NCBI RefSeq assembly: GCF_900187185.1
Contig: NZ_LT906465.1
Span: 1,860,001 to 1,924,000, forward strand
Length of the DNA stretch: 64,000 bases
Direction: 5' to 3'
Source of the DNA: Chryseobacterium taklimakanense
Lineage (GTDB): Bacteria; Bacteroidota; Bacteroidia; Flavobacteriales; Weeksellaceae
In this document: in pieces, positions 19,124 through 44,319 of the stretch
Layout of the letters: every line of letters begins with the position of its first letter
Position numbering within the stretch: position 1 is the stretch's first letter
Program-made: the position numbers and the translations under genes
Notes under the pieces: generated by a model
Told to the model about the DNA's origin: nothing
The model's database searches: none
What the model saw: the letters and a program-made list of their open reading frames with translations, nothing else

Positions 19124-19130
19124 TGGATAA

Positions 19131-19215
19131 CTTAGTGGTTTAGTGGTTTAGTGATAAGTGGTTTAGTGGTTTAGTGTTTAGTGGTTTAGTAATTTAGTGG
19201 TTTGGTGGTTTAATA
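19131..19215 (-). repeat. ACTAAACC-type tandem microrepeat before a carbonic anhydrase start
   Basis: About ten imperfect 7-9 bp units (plus strand GTGGTTTA / GTGTTTA; mRNA sense ACTAAACC). The array begins 7 nt upstream of the carbonic anhydrase ATG. It is essentially free of G in mRNA sense. No spacers, so not CRISPR. Confidence 0.75.
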
Positions 19216-19914: not shown

Positions 19915-21129
19915 TTAGAGTTTGTCGATGATTTCAATTATTTTATTGACTGAATTTTGCAGGTTGAACGGCATTTGGTAATCTATAAGTGCGGCCCGAT
20001 ATTTTGAAAAATTTTCAGGGTGTTTAAGCGCCTGCTTCATGCCTTCATAAATGCCTTCTTCGGAATTATCAACAATAAGTCCCAGCTTTCCGTCTTCCAG
20101 CATTTCGCGCACTCCGGAAACATCCGTGGCAATGATGTTCTTTTTCAGGGTAATGGCTTCAAACAAAACCGTGGGGAAACCTTCGTAACGCGAACTCAAG
20201 ACATAGAAATCAGCATTTTTAAAATGAGGATAAGGATTGTCGGTAAAGCCGGTCATTTCAGCCGTTTCTTCTACGTGAAGTTCTTTTCTTAGATTTTTAA
20301 TATTTTCAAAATCATAACCGTCGCCCACAATTTTGATTCTGTGGCTGAACCCTTCATCCAAAAGTTTCTTGTGAACTTTGAGCAGCCGGTCGAAGCCTTT
20401 TTGCGGAAAAACCGTTCCCACCGAAACGAAGACTGGTTGCTGGTTGCTGGTTTCTGGTTGTTGGTCTTGGCTCCTGACTCTTGGTTCTTGGCTCTTTCTA
20501 AGAATTTCCTCCGTATCCAAAGGGTTGTAAACTCGGACTATACGGCTTTTTTCGTCCTCAGTCCTGGCGAGTGATTCAAAATCTTTCTGAATGTGTTCGG
20601 AAATGACCAAAATTTTATCAAAACCGAAGAACTTGCGGATTTCATCATCGGTATAATTGTGGAAATGGGTTTTGCGGAGATCATTGTGAATCCAGACGAT
20701 TTTTTTGGAAGATTTCAGCGGCGAATTCAAAATCTCATCCCTGAAGCCGTGGATGGCGGCAAACTCAACATCATATTTTTTATTACTTAAAATTTTAGAA
20801 TACAACAATTTCGGAAACTTCTTCAAAAGACTCTGATAAATTACTCGAAACGCCTTTTTTGGAATGTCCTGCGGACGGTTGGTGGTAATCATTACGCCTT
20901 TGTTGAGGTAAAGAACGTTGATCCAGGACGGAACTTCCGGCAGGTATTTTCCGCTGTAAAGATTCAGCAATAGGTCTATTTCATATTTATGGGGCGGCAG
21001 GTTTTTCAGAAAGGTCACCAGCACTTTTTCTGCGCCGCCATGACGCAGGGAACCGATACGGATGAGGATTTTCTTTTTTTTCCTGATCCTATCAGAATCT
21101 TTTTCATACTGTTTTAATGCTTTATCCAT
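19915..21129 (-). CDS. GT4-family glycosyltransferase with an in-frame repeat insertion
   Basis: A 404-aa GT-B glycosyltransferase (glycos_transf_1 type). The N-terminal Rossmann domain starts ILIRIGSLRHGGAEKVLVTFL. The C-terminal nucleotide-sugar domain holds VFVSVGTVFPQKGFDRLLKV and the GT4 signature SSRYEGFPTVLFEAI with the E-x7-E pattern. Between the domains (about residues 212-232) is a low-complexity stretch rich in Gln, Pro, Ser and Arg, encoded by a microrepeat. The start is the ATG at 21129. The same 11-bp unit repeats across the start codon, and upstream ATGs in the repeat run into early stops. It works in polysaccharide assembly; sugar unknown. Confidence 0.88.
   Translation of the reverse strand: MDKALKQYEKDSDRIRKKKKILIRIGSLRHGGAEKVLVTFLKNLPPHKYEIDLLLNLYSGKYLPEVPSWINVLYLNKGVMITTNRPQDIPKKAFRVIYQSLLKKFPKLLYSKILSNKKYDVEFAAIHGFRDEILNSPLKSSKKIVWIHNDLRKTHFHNYTDDEIRKFFGFDKILVISEHIQKDFESLARTEDEKSRIVRVYNPLDTEEILRKSQEPRVRSQDQQPETSNQQPVFVSVGTVFPQKGFDRLLKVHKKLLDEGFSHRIKIVGDGYDFENIKNLRKELHVEETAEMTGFTDNPYPHFKNADFYVLSSRYEGFPTVLFEAITLKKNIIATDVSGVREMLEDGKLGLIVDNSEEGIYEGMKQALKHPENFSKYRAALIDYQMPFNLQNSVNKIIEIIDKL
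20433..20494 (-). repeat. In-frame microrepeat inside the GT4 gene
   Basis: Imperfect copies of CTGGTTG(C) and CTTGGTTCTTGGCT on the plus strand (mRNA sense CAACCAG and AGCCAAGAACC types), about 62 bp. It encodes a low-complexity linker of about 20 residues exactly between the two GT-B domains. Confidence 0.6.
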
Positions 21130-21161
21130 GCTTTATCCATGCTTTATCCATGCTTCATCTA
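21118..21161 (-). repeat. 11-bp tandem repeat overlapping a start codon
   Basis: Three exact copies of TGCTTTATCCA (21118-21150) and a degenerate fourth. In mRNA sense each unit supplies ATGGATAAAGC, so there are several ATGs in three frames; only the last one (21129) opens the GT4 gene. Further imperfect ACCCTTTATGT units continue to about 21200. Confidence 0.85.
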
Positions 21162-21191
21162 TACACTATGTACCCTTTATGTACTCTTTAT

Positions 21192-21770
21192 CTACCCTTT
21201 ATCTTTTGGCAGTCGTACAGGTTTGTAGGTGTGCGGCAGATTTTTTTTGATGTATGCATCGAGCTGCGGACGGTTTTTTTCGAGTTCGCGGGGATACATT
21301 ACGTTGTTTCTAAGTGCTTTATCGCCGTATTCATCAATGGTACAGATGAATTTTGCGGGGACTCCGGCGTAAACGGAATTTGCAGGCATGGAGGAGCTTA
21401 AGACAGAACCTGCGCCCAGAATACAGTTGTCGCCAATTTCCACACCGGGAAGGATCGTGCAGTTGTTGCCGATGAAACAGTTTTTTCCGATTTTAATCCT
21501 GCCGAAATTTCTCGCATCAGCATATTTTTCCATCGAGCGGATTACGTACATCGCGCCGTCATGATTGATGAACGTGCAGTTTGCCGTAATTTTCGTGCGG
21601 TCTCCAATTTCAATCAGATAAGGTTCCGAACCGAATTTGGGTGCTTCGATGAAAATCACGCCCTGTCCAACTTTCAAACCGCGCGCTTTGCAAACCTCGA
21701 TGTAGGCTTTATCATAAAAGTTTCGACAGAGTGTGTGCAGTTTCAGAAAAAGCCGGTAAAGGAAATTCAT
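21192..21770 (-). CDS. Left-handed beta-helix acyltransferase (WcaF/maltose O-acetyltransferase type)
   Basis: A 192-aa protein with hexapeptide repeats: LIEIGDRTKITANCTFINHDGA (about 52-73) and RIKIGKNCFIGNNCTILPGVEIGDNCILGAGSVLSSSMPANSVYAGVPAKFI (about 90-141). The INHDGA histidine matches the catalytic position of this family. The likely role is O-acetylation of a sugar in the surface polysaccharide. It starts 3 nt after the upstream GT4 stop and precedes another GT4 gene, so it is part of one transcript. Confidence 0.85.
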   Translation of the reverse strand: MNFLYRLFLKLHTLCRNFYDKAYIEVCKARGLKVGQGVIFIEAPKFGSEPYLIEIGDRTKITANCTFINHDGAMYVIRSMEKYADARNFGRIKIGKNCFIGNNCTILPGVEIGDNCILGAGSVLSSSMPANSVYAGVPAKFICTIDEYGDKALRNNVMYPRELEKNRPQLDAYIKKNLPHTYKPVRLPKDKG

Positions 21771-27736: not shown

Positions 27737-28819
27737 TCAGTTGTTTTGAACTCTTAAAATGAGGCGGCAGATGAGATCCACTTCCTCGCTGGTCAGGTCA
27801 TAATACAACGGCAGGCAGAGGACACGCCGCGAAATATCATCCGTTACGGGCAGGTGCTGCGGCTTCACATAAGGCAGCGAATCGGCCAGCGAAGGATAGA
27901 AGTATCTTCTCGTAAATATTTCGTGAAGCTTCAGGTGTTCAGCGCATTTCACCATCAGTTCTTCGCTTTCGAAAACCAGCGGATAGTACGCGAAATTGTT
28001 TTCCGATTCTTTGTGCCATACCGGTCTTACCGCTTTGAGGTTTTTCAGTTTCTCATCGTAGCGCTGCGTAATGCTTTTGCGTTTTTCGTGGATGTCTTCT
28101 ACAAATTTCAGGTTGGCCAGTCCCATCGCTGCATGGAATTCCGAATTTTTTCCGTTAATTCCCAGTTCGGCAAAATGTCCCGGACCGTCGAAACCGAAGT
28201 TCCGCATATACGCAATTTTTTTCAGCAGTTCAGGATCTTTGGTGATGACCAGTCCGCCTTCCACAGAATGATAAAGCTTGGTGGCATGCAGCGAGCAGGC
28301 AGCAATATCACCATATTCAAAAACTGATTTTCCGTTGATTTTTACTCCAAAAGCATGAGCGGCATCGTAGATCACTTTCAGGTTATGCTTTTTGGCTATC
28401 GCTTCAATTTTCTCCACATCGCAGGGGTTGCCATAAACATGGGTTGCCAAAATCGCAGAAGTGTTTTCCGTTATGGCGGCCTCTATTTTATCCGCATCAA
28501 TGTTCAGCGATTCCGGATCGATGTCCACAAAAACCGGGGTACAGCATTCCCAAACAATCGAGCTGGTGGTCGCCACAAAAGAAAACGGCGTGGTAATGAT
28601 TTCGCCTTGCAGTTCCAGGGCTTTAATGGCGAACTGCAGCGCCACGGTTCCGTTGGTCACGAAAAGGAGGTGCTGCACATCAAGATGTTCTTTCAGCTGC
28701 ATTTCCAGGTCGCTTGCCAGAGGTCCCATATTGGTGAGCCACTGTCTTTTCCAGATACCGTTGAGGTAGTTCTGGTAAATGCCCTGCGGAGGCAGAAAGG
28801 GTTTGGTTACGGGAATCAT
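27737..28819 (-). CDS. DegT/DnrJ/EryC1-family PLP sugar aminotransferase
   Basis: A 360-aa PLP enzyme that aminates a keto-sugar nucleotide. Lys181 in SLHATKLYHSVEGG is the PLP lysine, Asp152 lies in VIYDAAHAFG, and the substrate segments TNGTVALQFA and TTPFSFVATTSSI are present. The family includes WecE, VioA, FdtB and PglE. From its neighbours the likely product is a 4-amino-4,6-dideoxyhexose, but 3-amino sugars are also possible. It overlaps the upstream acyltransferase gene by 4 bp. Confidence 0.9.
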   Translation of the reverse strand: MIPVTKPFLPPQGIYQNYLNGIWKRQWLTNMGPLASDLEMQLKEHLDVQHLLFVTNGTVALQFAIKALELQGEIITTPFSFVATTSSIVWECCTPVFVDIDPESLNIDADKIEAAITENTSAILATHVYGNPCDVEKIEAIAKKHNLKVIYDAAHAFGVKINGKSVFEYGDIAACSLHATKLYHSVEGGLVITKDPELLKKIAYMRNFGFDGPGHFAELGINGKNSEFHAAMGLANLKFVEDIHEKRKSITQRYDEKLKNLKAVRPVWHKESENNFAYYPLVFESEELMVKCAEHLKLHEIFTRRYFYPSLADSLPYVKPQHLPVTDDISRRVLCLPLYYDLTSEEVDLICRLILRVQNN

Positions 28820-29373
28820 ATCGGTTTTATCTCGAGATTTTGCTTGTTAATGATGACTGAATTGGCGGGCACGTCTTTATGAATGACGCATCCGGCACCT
28901 AAAATCACATTCTCACCGATGGTAACGCCCTTCAGAATTATGCAGTTGGCGCCGCTCCACACATTGTTGCCGATTTTTACAGGTGCGGTATTGAATTCTG
29001 TCTTTGAAACTGAAAACGGCTCACGGGTGTACTGATGGTTGTGGTCGAAAATTTTCAGGCCCTCTCCCAGGATGCAGTTTTCACCGATTTCAATCCTGTC
29101 GAGGCAGGCAATGGTTGCACGGGTGATATAGGTGTTTTTTCCTATTTTAAGGTGACCTTCTTTTTTCACGGCAATGCTGTTGGATTCGTTGAGGTGCACA
29201 TGCTCTGCAATATCGAAAGTGGCTGTAGGTGAGATGTCCACAAAGTTATCTGCACCAAAACGGAATGAACTGTGTATGCGGCTTTTGGGATTCAAAAAAA
29301 AGCGTTTTCTCTTGGAAGCGGCATCGGCTGTTTTCAGCAGACCGTAGAGGCGTGAAAAGAGGGCGTTCAGCAT
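28816..29373 (-). CDS. Left-handed beta-helix acyltransferase, WbbJ-like
   Basis: A 185-aa O-acyltransferase with hexapeptide repeats (HLKIGKNTYITRATIACLDR, IEIGENCILGEGLKIFDHNH, VKIGNNVWSGANCIILKG, VTIGENVILGAGCVIHKD). The histidines in FDHNHQY fit the catalytic site. It is first in the leftward operon 29373 to 19915. The start is set at the ATG at 29373, because a -7 box at 29387-29395 lies inside the extra 12 codons that an ATG at 29409 would give. Confidence 0.85.
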   Translation of the reverse strand: MLNALFSRLYGLLKTADAASKRKRFFLNPKSRIHSSFRFGADNFVDISPTATFDIAEHVHLNESNSIAVKKEGHLKIGKNTYITRATIACLDRIEIGENCILGEGLKIFDHNHQYTREPFSVSKTEFNTAPVKIGNNVWSGANCIILKGVTIGENVILGAGCVIHKDVPANSVIINKQNLEIKPI

Positions 29374-29386
29374 TGTGTTTGTTTGT

Positions 29387-29395
29387 ACAAAGATA
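29387..29395 (-). promoter_or_regulatory. -7 box of the leftward polysaccharide operon (29.37 to 19.9 kb)
   Basis: Minus-strand TATCTTTGT (TAnnTTTG), 13 nt upstream of the ATG at 29373. It is the only clear promoter for the ten genes down to 19915, which are joined by 4-11 bp overlaps or very short gaps, apart from three gaps of 73 nt or less that hold microrepeats. Confidence 0.55.
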
Positions 29396-29436
29396 TTATT
29401 TTTTATCATGTGTATGTCCGGATCTTTTTTACACTT

Positions 29437-29802
29437 AAGTTTTATTCTTATGCTGCTGTAATAGAACGCTGGAGGGCATCTAAGTGCTTAATATCTTTTT
29501 TGACATGTAAGTTTTATTTTCATGTTGCTTTAAGAAGTCACTTTAGGGCACTACAGTTTGAAAACCGGAGGTTTTCTGTGTACGTGTTTTTAGGTGACTT
29601 AAAGAGAGACTTAACAGTGTTGCTTAAATGTTTTTTAAATAATTTTAAAACACTTAAGTTTTATTTTCATGCTGTTTTAAAAAGTCACTTTAGGCCACTA
29701 AAGTTTGAAAACAGTAGGTTTTCTGCTAATGTGTTCTTAGGTGACTTCATGAGAGGTTTATTAGTGTCACTTAAGTGTTTAAAATATTTTTATAAGCCAC
29801 TT
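29437..29802 (+). repeat. 147-bp tandem repeat with a foldable core, between divergent operons
   Basis: The 29410-29821 stretch has no credible gene. Two full copies (from 29509 and from 29656; period 147 bp, roughly 75-80% alike by eye) follow a truncated copy starting at 29437. Each full copy carries a 66-bp core (29535-29600 and 29682-29747) closed by AAGTCAC/GTGACTT. Inside are two hairpins: CTTTAG...CTAAAG (perfect in copy 2, one mismatch in copy 1) and GAAAACC...GGTTTTC (full in copy 1; GAAAAC/GTTTTC in copy 2). A 141-codon frame runs through both copies, but the differences between copies fall mainly at first and second codon positions, so protein coding is unlikely. Confidence 0.8.
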
Positions 29803-29869
29803 CGTTGATCTACGCAATACAGTGAGGCACTTTGCCATTGTTCCTCAATATTCAATGATGCATTTTTCT

Positions 29870-29878
29870 TATTTTTGC
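29870..29878 (+). promoter_or_regulatory. -7 box of the rightward GT2 gene
   Basis: TATTTTTGC (TAnnTTTGC), 12 nt upstream of the ATG at 29891. It rules out the upstream in-frame ATG at 29822 as the start. Confidence 0.6.
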
Positions 29879-29890
29879 AAAAACAAGCCA

Positions 29891-30886
29891 ATGCAGCCTC
29901 TGGTTACGGTTTCGGTTCCGATTTTTAAATGTGAAGAATTCCTGGAGAAATGTCTGGATTCCATCCGGATGCAGACTTATCCTGCGTTGGAAGTGACGCT
30001 GATCAATGACCAGACGCCTGACAGTTCGCTGAAGATTGCCGAAGAGTATATCGAAAGACATCAGCTTCAGAACTGGAAGATCTATCACCTTGAGAAAAAT
30101 TTTGGTCTCTCCGTGGTTCGGAATAAAGGAATTGACACTGCGCAGGGAAAGTATCTTTTTTTTCTCGACAGCGACGATACTATCACGCCAGACTGTATTG
30201 AAACCCTGGTCGCTATTTCTGAAAAAACCGCTGCGGAGATGACGGTGGGAAGCTGCCGCGGCATCAGGCTTCCGGACGGTGAGGTTTCTTTTCCGTTTCC
30301 CATCAAAGAAACAAAAGATGAACTGAACGGCAACAGCGAGATTTTCACTTCCTATATTCAGGGAAATATTCCGGACAGTTCGTGGAACAAAATGATACTT
30401 ACGTCATTTTTAAAGGAAAACCAGCTGTATTTTGTGCCCGGACTTTTCGCCCAGGATTCGCTGCACACTTTTCATGTCATGCTGAAGATCACTTCGATCG
30501 CTTTCTCCCGGAAGATCACTTATGATTATTATCTTCATGAAAAGTCGGTCATTCATAACCGGGGAAAAACGCATTTTGACAACTGGCGGACCATCGCAGA
30601 ATATTTTGCAAAAGCAGTTCAGGAAGAAAAAGATCCGCTGCGCAAAACGCTGATGATGCAGCACCTCATCAACTTCAAAACCATGACGCTCCAAATGAAC
30701 TGGCGCGCACAAAACGACAGACAACTGTGGAAGGAGAGCTACAGAAACTATAAAAAAATCGCGCCCATGAAGGCGTCCGATGCGCTTCGCGGAAAGTATA
30801 ACCGTTCTATTCTGAAACAGGAACTGCTCAACAGACTACCCACTGCATTGGGTTACTGGGTTTTCAGGAAAAGATGGGGAAGCTGA
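29891..30886 (+). CDS. GT2-family glycosyltransferase
   Basis: A 331-aa GT-A transferase. The N-terminus MQPLVTVSVPIFKCEEFLEK is at the normal GT2 position, followed by ALEVTLINDQTPDSS and the DXD motif FLDSDDT near residue 96. The second half (LFAQDSLHTFHVMLK) resembles the catalytic-base region. The start was chosen from the -7 box 12 nt upstream. It is monocistronic, reads rightward, and is divergent from the large leftward operon and convergent with the TviB-like gene. Confidence 0.88.
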   Translation: MQPLVTVSVPIFKCEEFLEKCLDSIRMQTYPALEVTLINDQTPDSSLKIAEEYIERHQLQNWKIYHLEKNFGLSVVRNKGIDTAQGKYLFFLDSDDTITPDCIETLVAISEKTAAEMTVGSCRGIRLPDGEVSFPFPIKETKDELNGNSEIFTSYIQGNIPDSSWNKMILTSFLKENQLYFVPGLFAQDSLHTFHVMLKITSIAFSRKITYDYYLHEKSVIHNRGKTHFDNWRTIAEYFAKAVQEEKDPLRKTLMMQHLINFKTMTLQMNWRAQNDRQLWKESYRNYKKIAPMKASDALRGKYNRSILKQELLNRLPTALGYWVFRKRWGS

Positions 30887-44240: not shown

Positions 44241-44319
44241 AGTTATGGTTGTTATGGTGGTTATGGAGGTTATGGGGGTTATGGAAGTTATGGTGGTTAT
44301 GGGGTAATGGAGGTTATCG
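44241..44319 (-). repeat. CCATAACC tandem microrepeat before the wzt-like gene
   Basis: About nine units of the type GGTTATGG / GGTGGTTATG on the plus strand. In mRNA sense it reads CCATAACCACCATAAC and is free of G. The array ends 10 nt before the ATG, followed by a run of A. Confidence 0.8.

Follow-up and report, generated by a model that had tools for sequence, protein, structure and literature searches.

The array and its flanking genes

The stretch analysed here (the window, 64,000 nucleotides of Chryseobacterium taklimakanense DNA) contains a tandem repeat between two divergent polysaccharide operons. To its left, a hexapeptide acyltransferase gene and a DegT-type aminotransferase gene are read leftward; to its right, a family 2 glycosyltransferase (GT2) gene is read rightward. 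The features of the locus, from left to right within each group, are as follows.

28816-29373, minus strand: flanking hexapeptide acyltransferase gene (Pfam PF00132; ATG taken at 29373)
29388-29395, minus strand: predicted -7 box of the leftward operon, TATCTTTG; outside the repeat, read from the sequence
29870-29877, plus strand: predicted -7 box of the rightward GT2 gene, TATTTTTG; outside the repeat, read from the sequence
29891-30886, plus strand: flanking GT2 gene (Pfam PF00535; ATG taken at 29891)

about 29431-29495, plus strand: truncated copy, with left arm ACACTTAAGTTTTATTCTTATGCTGCTGTAA and right-arm remnant CTAAGTGCTTAATA, centre deleted; by alignment to the left arms
about 29498-29635, plus strand: full copy 1, palindromic element; by TRF, profile R2 (whole-genome E = 8.8e-5, a rough value) and hairpin fold
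about 29643-29786, plus strand: full copy 2, palindromic element; R2 whole-genome E = 3.9e-10 (rough), nhmmer E = 2.4e-11 in the window

29535-29600, plus strand: 66-nt inner palindrome of copy 1, closed by AAGTCAC/GTGACTT; single hairpin, -27.6 kcal/mol
29682-29747, plus strand: 66-nt inner palindrome of copy 2, closed by AAGTCAC/GTGACTT; single hairpin, -22.4 kcal/mol
29560-29576, plus strand: central core hairpin of copy 1, GAAAACCGGAGGTTTTC (the family form is GAAAATCnnnGATTTTC)
29707-29723, plus strand: central core hairpin of copy 2, GAAAACAGTAGGTTTTC

The Bacteroidota -7 consensus is TAnnTTTG. The original prediction had placed divergent promoters at this locus, and boxes of this type were found at 29395-29388 on the minus strand and at 29870-29877 on the plus strand. 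Neither predicted box is within the array and both face outward, so the array is presumably in neither main transcript. A scan for intrinsic terminators found none, and a search of the named genomes for relatives of the GT2 protein returned none.

TRF reported a period of 147 at 29508-29780 (1.9 copies, score 399, 83% matches, zero indels), in agreement with the 147-bp repeat first described. The two 147-bp units are separated by 33 differences. The count of two full copies and one truncated copy also held. The third copy aligns to the left arms of the full copies from about 29431 and gave only a sub-threshold profile match (29424-29484, E = 1.8). The bounds of the full copies were set by an independent profile. 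TRF listed other short tandem repeats elsewhere in the window, at 19128-19212 (8/23/31 bp), 21117-21202 (11 bp) and 44242-44317 (9 bp units).

Each full copy folds as one long palindrome

The original prediction proposed that each full copy holds a 66-bp core closed by AAGTCAC/GTGACTT, with two hairpins forming a conserved three-way junction. The closing stem was found in both full copies. When both cores were folded, as had been suggested, they were on the plus strand more stable than 200 of 200 dinucleotide shuffles (z = -5.8 for copy 1 and -4.0 for copy 2). However, for both cores the minimum-energy structure and the centroid are each one hairpin without branches. The two-hairpin form is far less stable (-8.6 versus -27.6 kcal/mol in copy 1, and -12.7 versus -22.4 kcal/mol in copy 2) and has a probability below 1e-7. 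Thus, we reject the three-way junction.

The palindrome is imperfect and spans about 129 bp, well beyond its 66-bp core. These longer palindromes of about 129 nt out-fold nearly all shuffles in the full copies; the truncated copy folds no better than its shuffles. In both full copies the hairpin is more stable on the plus strand, via G-U pairs. By folding, both full copies are thus single long palindromes with imperfect pairing, and the broader claim of a repeated, non-coding, hairpin-forming element between divergent polysaccharide operons was confirmed.

A dispersed family in the Chryseobacterium clade

Relatives of the array are difficult to find by plain sequence comparison. An exact-core search of 323 family genomes matched the window only, and plain DNA searches gave either the window only or scattered weak matches. 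Relatives surfaced first with a covariance model built from the two window copies (R1), and then with the element of genome G093 as the query. R1 picked up four tandem copies of a 196-bp unit in G081, as well as single copies in two other genomes, G012 and G093. These relatives share a plan in which the outer arms resemble AAACACTTAAG, the inner arms have the form CAC(A/T)3AG and GAAAATCnnnGATTTTC stands at the centre; AACCACAAAAGnCACAAAAG ends are frequently added. A unit measures about 130-150 bp, its outer arms reading AAACACTTnAG and its inner arms AAGTnCAC...GTGnACTT around the same centre. Many relatives carry outermost AACCACAAAAG ends, which the window copies do not have. The core TGAAAATCnnnGATTTTC is present in 20 of 99 relatives, with a maximum of 56 matches in one genome; the reversed control of this pattern gave 0 matches in the 99 relatives.

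Membership of the window copies was examined with R2, a sequence-only model made from 51 named foreign copies. The test is not circular because no window copy went into the model. Searched against the whole own genome, R2 recovered copy 2 and copy 1 with the rough E-values listed above. It also matched further copies on the own chromosome at 984.9 kb (2.2e-7) and 981.2 kb (1.3e-4); these E-values too are rough, and the two copies rest on model and pattern searches. They lie 3.7 kb apart (L127, G000:C1:979800-987000), with CTTTTGTGACTTTTGTGGTT-type ends nearby. An nhmmer profile of 87 foreign copies found copy 2 in the window at the E-value listed above, and the best match in the reversed window was 1.5.

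A pattern scan of the named genomes, in which the 3' inner arm was fixed in the pattern, found at least 119 stretches. Among the matches listed (80 loci), all but four are from Chryseobacterium. Two of the four are from Epilithonimonas, one is from Frigoriflavimonas, and one is from a MAG labelled Pseudobacter, which was excluded from the profile alignment for its ill-fitting arms. Judging from these named matches, the genera of the numbered genomes appear to be Chryseobacterium and its relatives. Copies are intergenic in 88 of 91 cases. The gene pairs around 83 classified copies are codirectional in 63 cases, divergent in 12 and convergent in 8.

These comparisons indicate that the window copies are members of an intergenic palindrome family dispersed through the Chryseobacterium clade (Weeksellaceae), and the idea of an element special to this locus was not upheld. 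Among the openly licensed papers searched, we found no published description of the family.

Gain, loss and tandem amplification

Presence and absence were compared at two orthologous sites for family members in a genus other than that of the window (g21, 30 species). Site 1 lies between the end of an aminotransferase-like gene and the start of a carbamoyltransferase-like gene. Here we found empty sites of 11-51 bp, filled sites and a centre-deleted copy (L173), and L194, beside L195, holds a footprint of two ends only. Filled and empty sites are too diverged at site 1 for a target-site duplication to be read. At site 2, 17 of the 30 species are without the element and 13 carry 1-4 copies. The two closest, near-identical species differ there, with 4 full copies in one versus 2 damaged copies in the other.

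In other g21 species, site 1 is occupied by an unrelated inverted-repeat element beginning TGTCATTCTGA; it is represented by loci L168, L170, L172, L174, L176, L179 and L196, where TTTGTCATTCTGA...TCAGAATGACAAA is seen, in many cases together with GCTGAGTGAAACGCC.

Head-to-tail arrays have arisen independently in at least six other genomes. Their periods are 196 bp in G081, 108 bp in G338, about 272 bp in G093, 217 and 272 bp in C. shigense, and 193 bp in C. aurantiacum. Among the matches listed, the abutting 150-bp pairs of C. rhizosphaerae are closest to the window array. As head-to-tail arrays recur in different genomes, the window array acts like the rest of the family. The sequence comparisons show dispersal, gain and loss, copy-number change and internal deletion as properties of this palindrome family.

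Nature of the element

Our best reading is that a dispersed palindrome of the ERIC/MITE type, non-coding and non-autonomous, forms a small tandem array here; the palindrome is widespread in the intergenic DNA of Chryseobacterium and related Weeksellaceae (probability about 0.86). The original prediction had offered a small RNA, a protein-binding site array or a recombination element that controls the locus. The recombination-type option agrees best with our reading. A structured RNA maintained by compensatory change is not supported, as covariation was not convincingly above that of shuffled alignments.

A rather unlikely alternative is that the array is a DNA-level regulatory site that affects the divergent operons, either as a cruciform or as palindromes bound by a protein, for instance a nucleoid protein or gyrase. 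It sits between divergent promoters, and the core and inner arms of the family are conserved beyond the needs of pairing. For instance, GAAAA.C...GATTTTC is invariant in alignment A5, partly as a result of pattern choice, and a non-complementary position is conserved (AAGTaCAC/GTGaACTT). REP/BIME elements are known host-protein binding sites (PMC2817692). However, many species lack the element at orthologous sites, and divergent regions hold only 12 of the 83 classified copies. Control of the flanking operons, as first suggested, is unsupported: the array is upstream of both predicted -7 boxes, and other copies adjoin unrelated genes. On our reading, if the array influences its neighbouring operons at all, it would do so incidentally.

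It is very unlikely that the copies are structured RNAs (a small RNA or leader) made from the plus strand and working through their hairpins. Both copies form stable hairpins, and G-U pairs favour the plus strand. Additionally, 2 of 39 predicted pairs are changed on both sides between the window copies with pairing kept. Across 31 copies, 80.5% of cells are paired when the named stems are in register, versus 51% or less when slid. But neither promoter predicted at the locus faces the array, a search of Rfam gave no match at E <= 1, and the idea that compensatory change keeps the hairpin found no support. In the 31-copy alignment, which may include copies in the wrong orientation, the covariation score was reached by 201 of 500 shuffles and the count of doubly changed pairs by 487 of 500. 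Thus, the covariation predicted for homologous copies was not convincingly above shuffles, and what stands of it is the two double changes in the window pair. Two such pairs are too little to carry a claim for RNA.

Permutation of arms among 87 oriented copies gave a similar picture. Inner arms match their own partner no better than the partners of other copies (8.02 versus 8.59), and the same is true of whole arms (15.74 versus 15.89). Outer arms show a small excess (12.76 versus 12.18, a value reached by 91 of 5000 permutations), which counts towards an RNA but could be explained by shared ancestry. Together with the two double changes, this excess leaves room for weak selection on pairing. 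Where copies lie between codirectional genes, the antisense strand folds better in 37 cases and the sense strand in 19, which also argues against an RNA.

We consider it very unlikely that the element is of the REPIN type and moved by RAYT, a Y1 transposase. Palindromic dispersed repeats in tandem arrays do look REPIN-like (PMC3116915), and 46 of 99 relatives have RAYT-like genes. However, neither the core nor the ends of the element were present at any of 30 RAYT loci. Genomes with many or arrayed copies are without a good RAYT (G093 has one weak match, and G338 and G249 have none), and the own genome has a single marginal match. Thus, RAYT was rejected as the mobilizer. The RAYT genes that were inspected are flanked by other short repeats. 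RAYT-like genes at L211, L202 and L198 have flanking repeats of their own (GGGCGGCGCTTTGCTTACCCAATGC tandem units, GTAAGTTTCACATACGG and GCCGCAGAGCGGCGAT) that are unrelated to the palindrome.

Practically no credence can be given to a protein with internal 49-aa repeats in the 141-aa plus-strand frame at 29383-29808, which runs through every copy without a stop since 147 bp is divisible by 3: changed codons between the units are 19 nonsynonymous versus 2 synonymous, and 81 of 87 foreign copies are without an open frame, the remainder equalling the shuffled expectation. The original prediction had argued against a protein from a skew of changes to codon positions 1 and 2, and had named an intact frame in homologues as evidence to the contrary. 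That skew is trivial, as the 33 differences fall 10/13/10 over positions 1/2/3, which is random. The conclusion itself stands on the codon changes, and the foreign copies keep no frame.

A model for the array

Based on these results, we propose a model for the origin of the array as an ERIC/MITE-type palindrome. A unit would enter intergenic DNA by transposition, with the enzymes supplied in trans. Head-to-tail duplication and internal deletion would then follow through replication slippage or unequal recombination; long palindromes are susceptible to both. In the window, the outcome would be two full copies and one copy with its centre deleted.

The palindrome resembles several known elements. 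ERIC is about 127 bp long, forms a single long stem-loop, and is intergenic with tens to hundreds of copies and shorter variants (PMC2267715). Compared by these described features, the array unit is similar in being a single hairpin of about 129 nt with a largely intergenic family. It differs in that ERIC occurs in enterobacteria and Vibrio and has another sequence, whereas the present family is AT-rich, belongs to Weeksellaceae and often forms head-to-tail arrays. Like MITEs, the element is short and non-coding, has terminal inverted repeats and no transposase of its own, and has empty orthologous sites (seen for family members in another genus); by these features it is MITE-like. REPIN and REP-BIME elements, like our family, are palindromic, dispersed and intergenic. 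Their clusters are most often tandem arrays in which the unit is repeated together with its flanks, and footprints of excision are known (PMC3116915). In contrast, our family showed no association with RAYT and consists of a long AT-rich palindrome rather than a doublet of short REPs. We regard the palindrome family as new and its kind, ERIC/MITE-like, as already known.

It is possible, although we hold this only tentatively, that the copies represent an undescribed clade-wide Weeksellaceae family that spreads free of RAYT and is recurrently amplified head to tail. In that case a host or transposition protein would recognize the conserved core and the asymmetric inner arms, in which one position that does not pair is conserved.

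These results replace a candidate riboregulator with an explanation from genome biology. Annotators of Chryseobacterium-like genomes meet such palindromes often, and a named family with a profile would prevent them from being miscalled as small RNAs, regulatory arrays or hypothetical proteins.

A second subfamily was seen at several loci (L109-L126 of G093, L134, L138 and L142-L144). It has a GAAAATCTTTGATTTTC centre, and GCGCAAG/CTTGCGCCTTAAAA arms replace the CACAAAAG arms.
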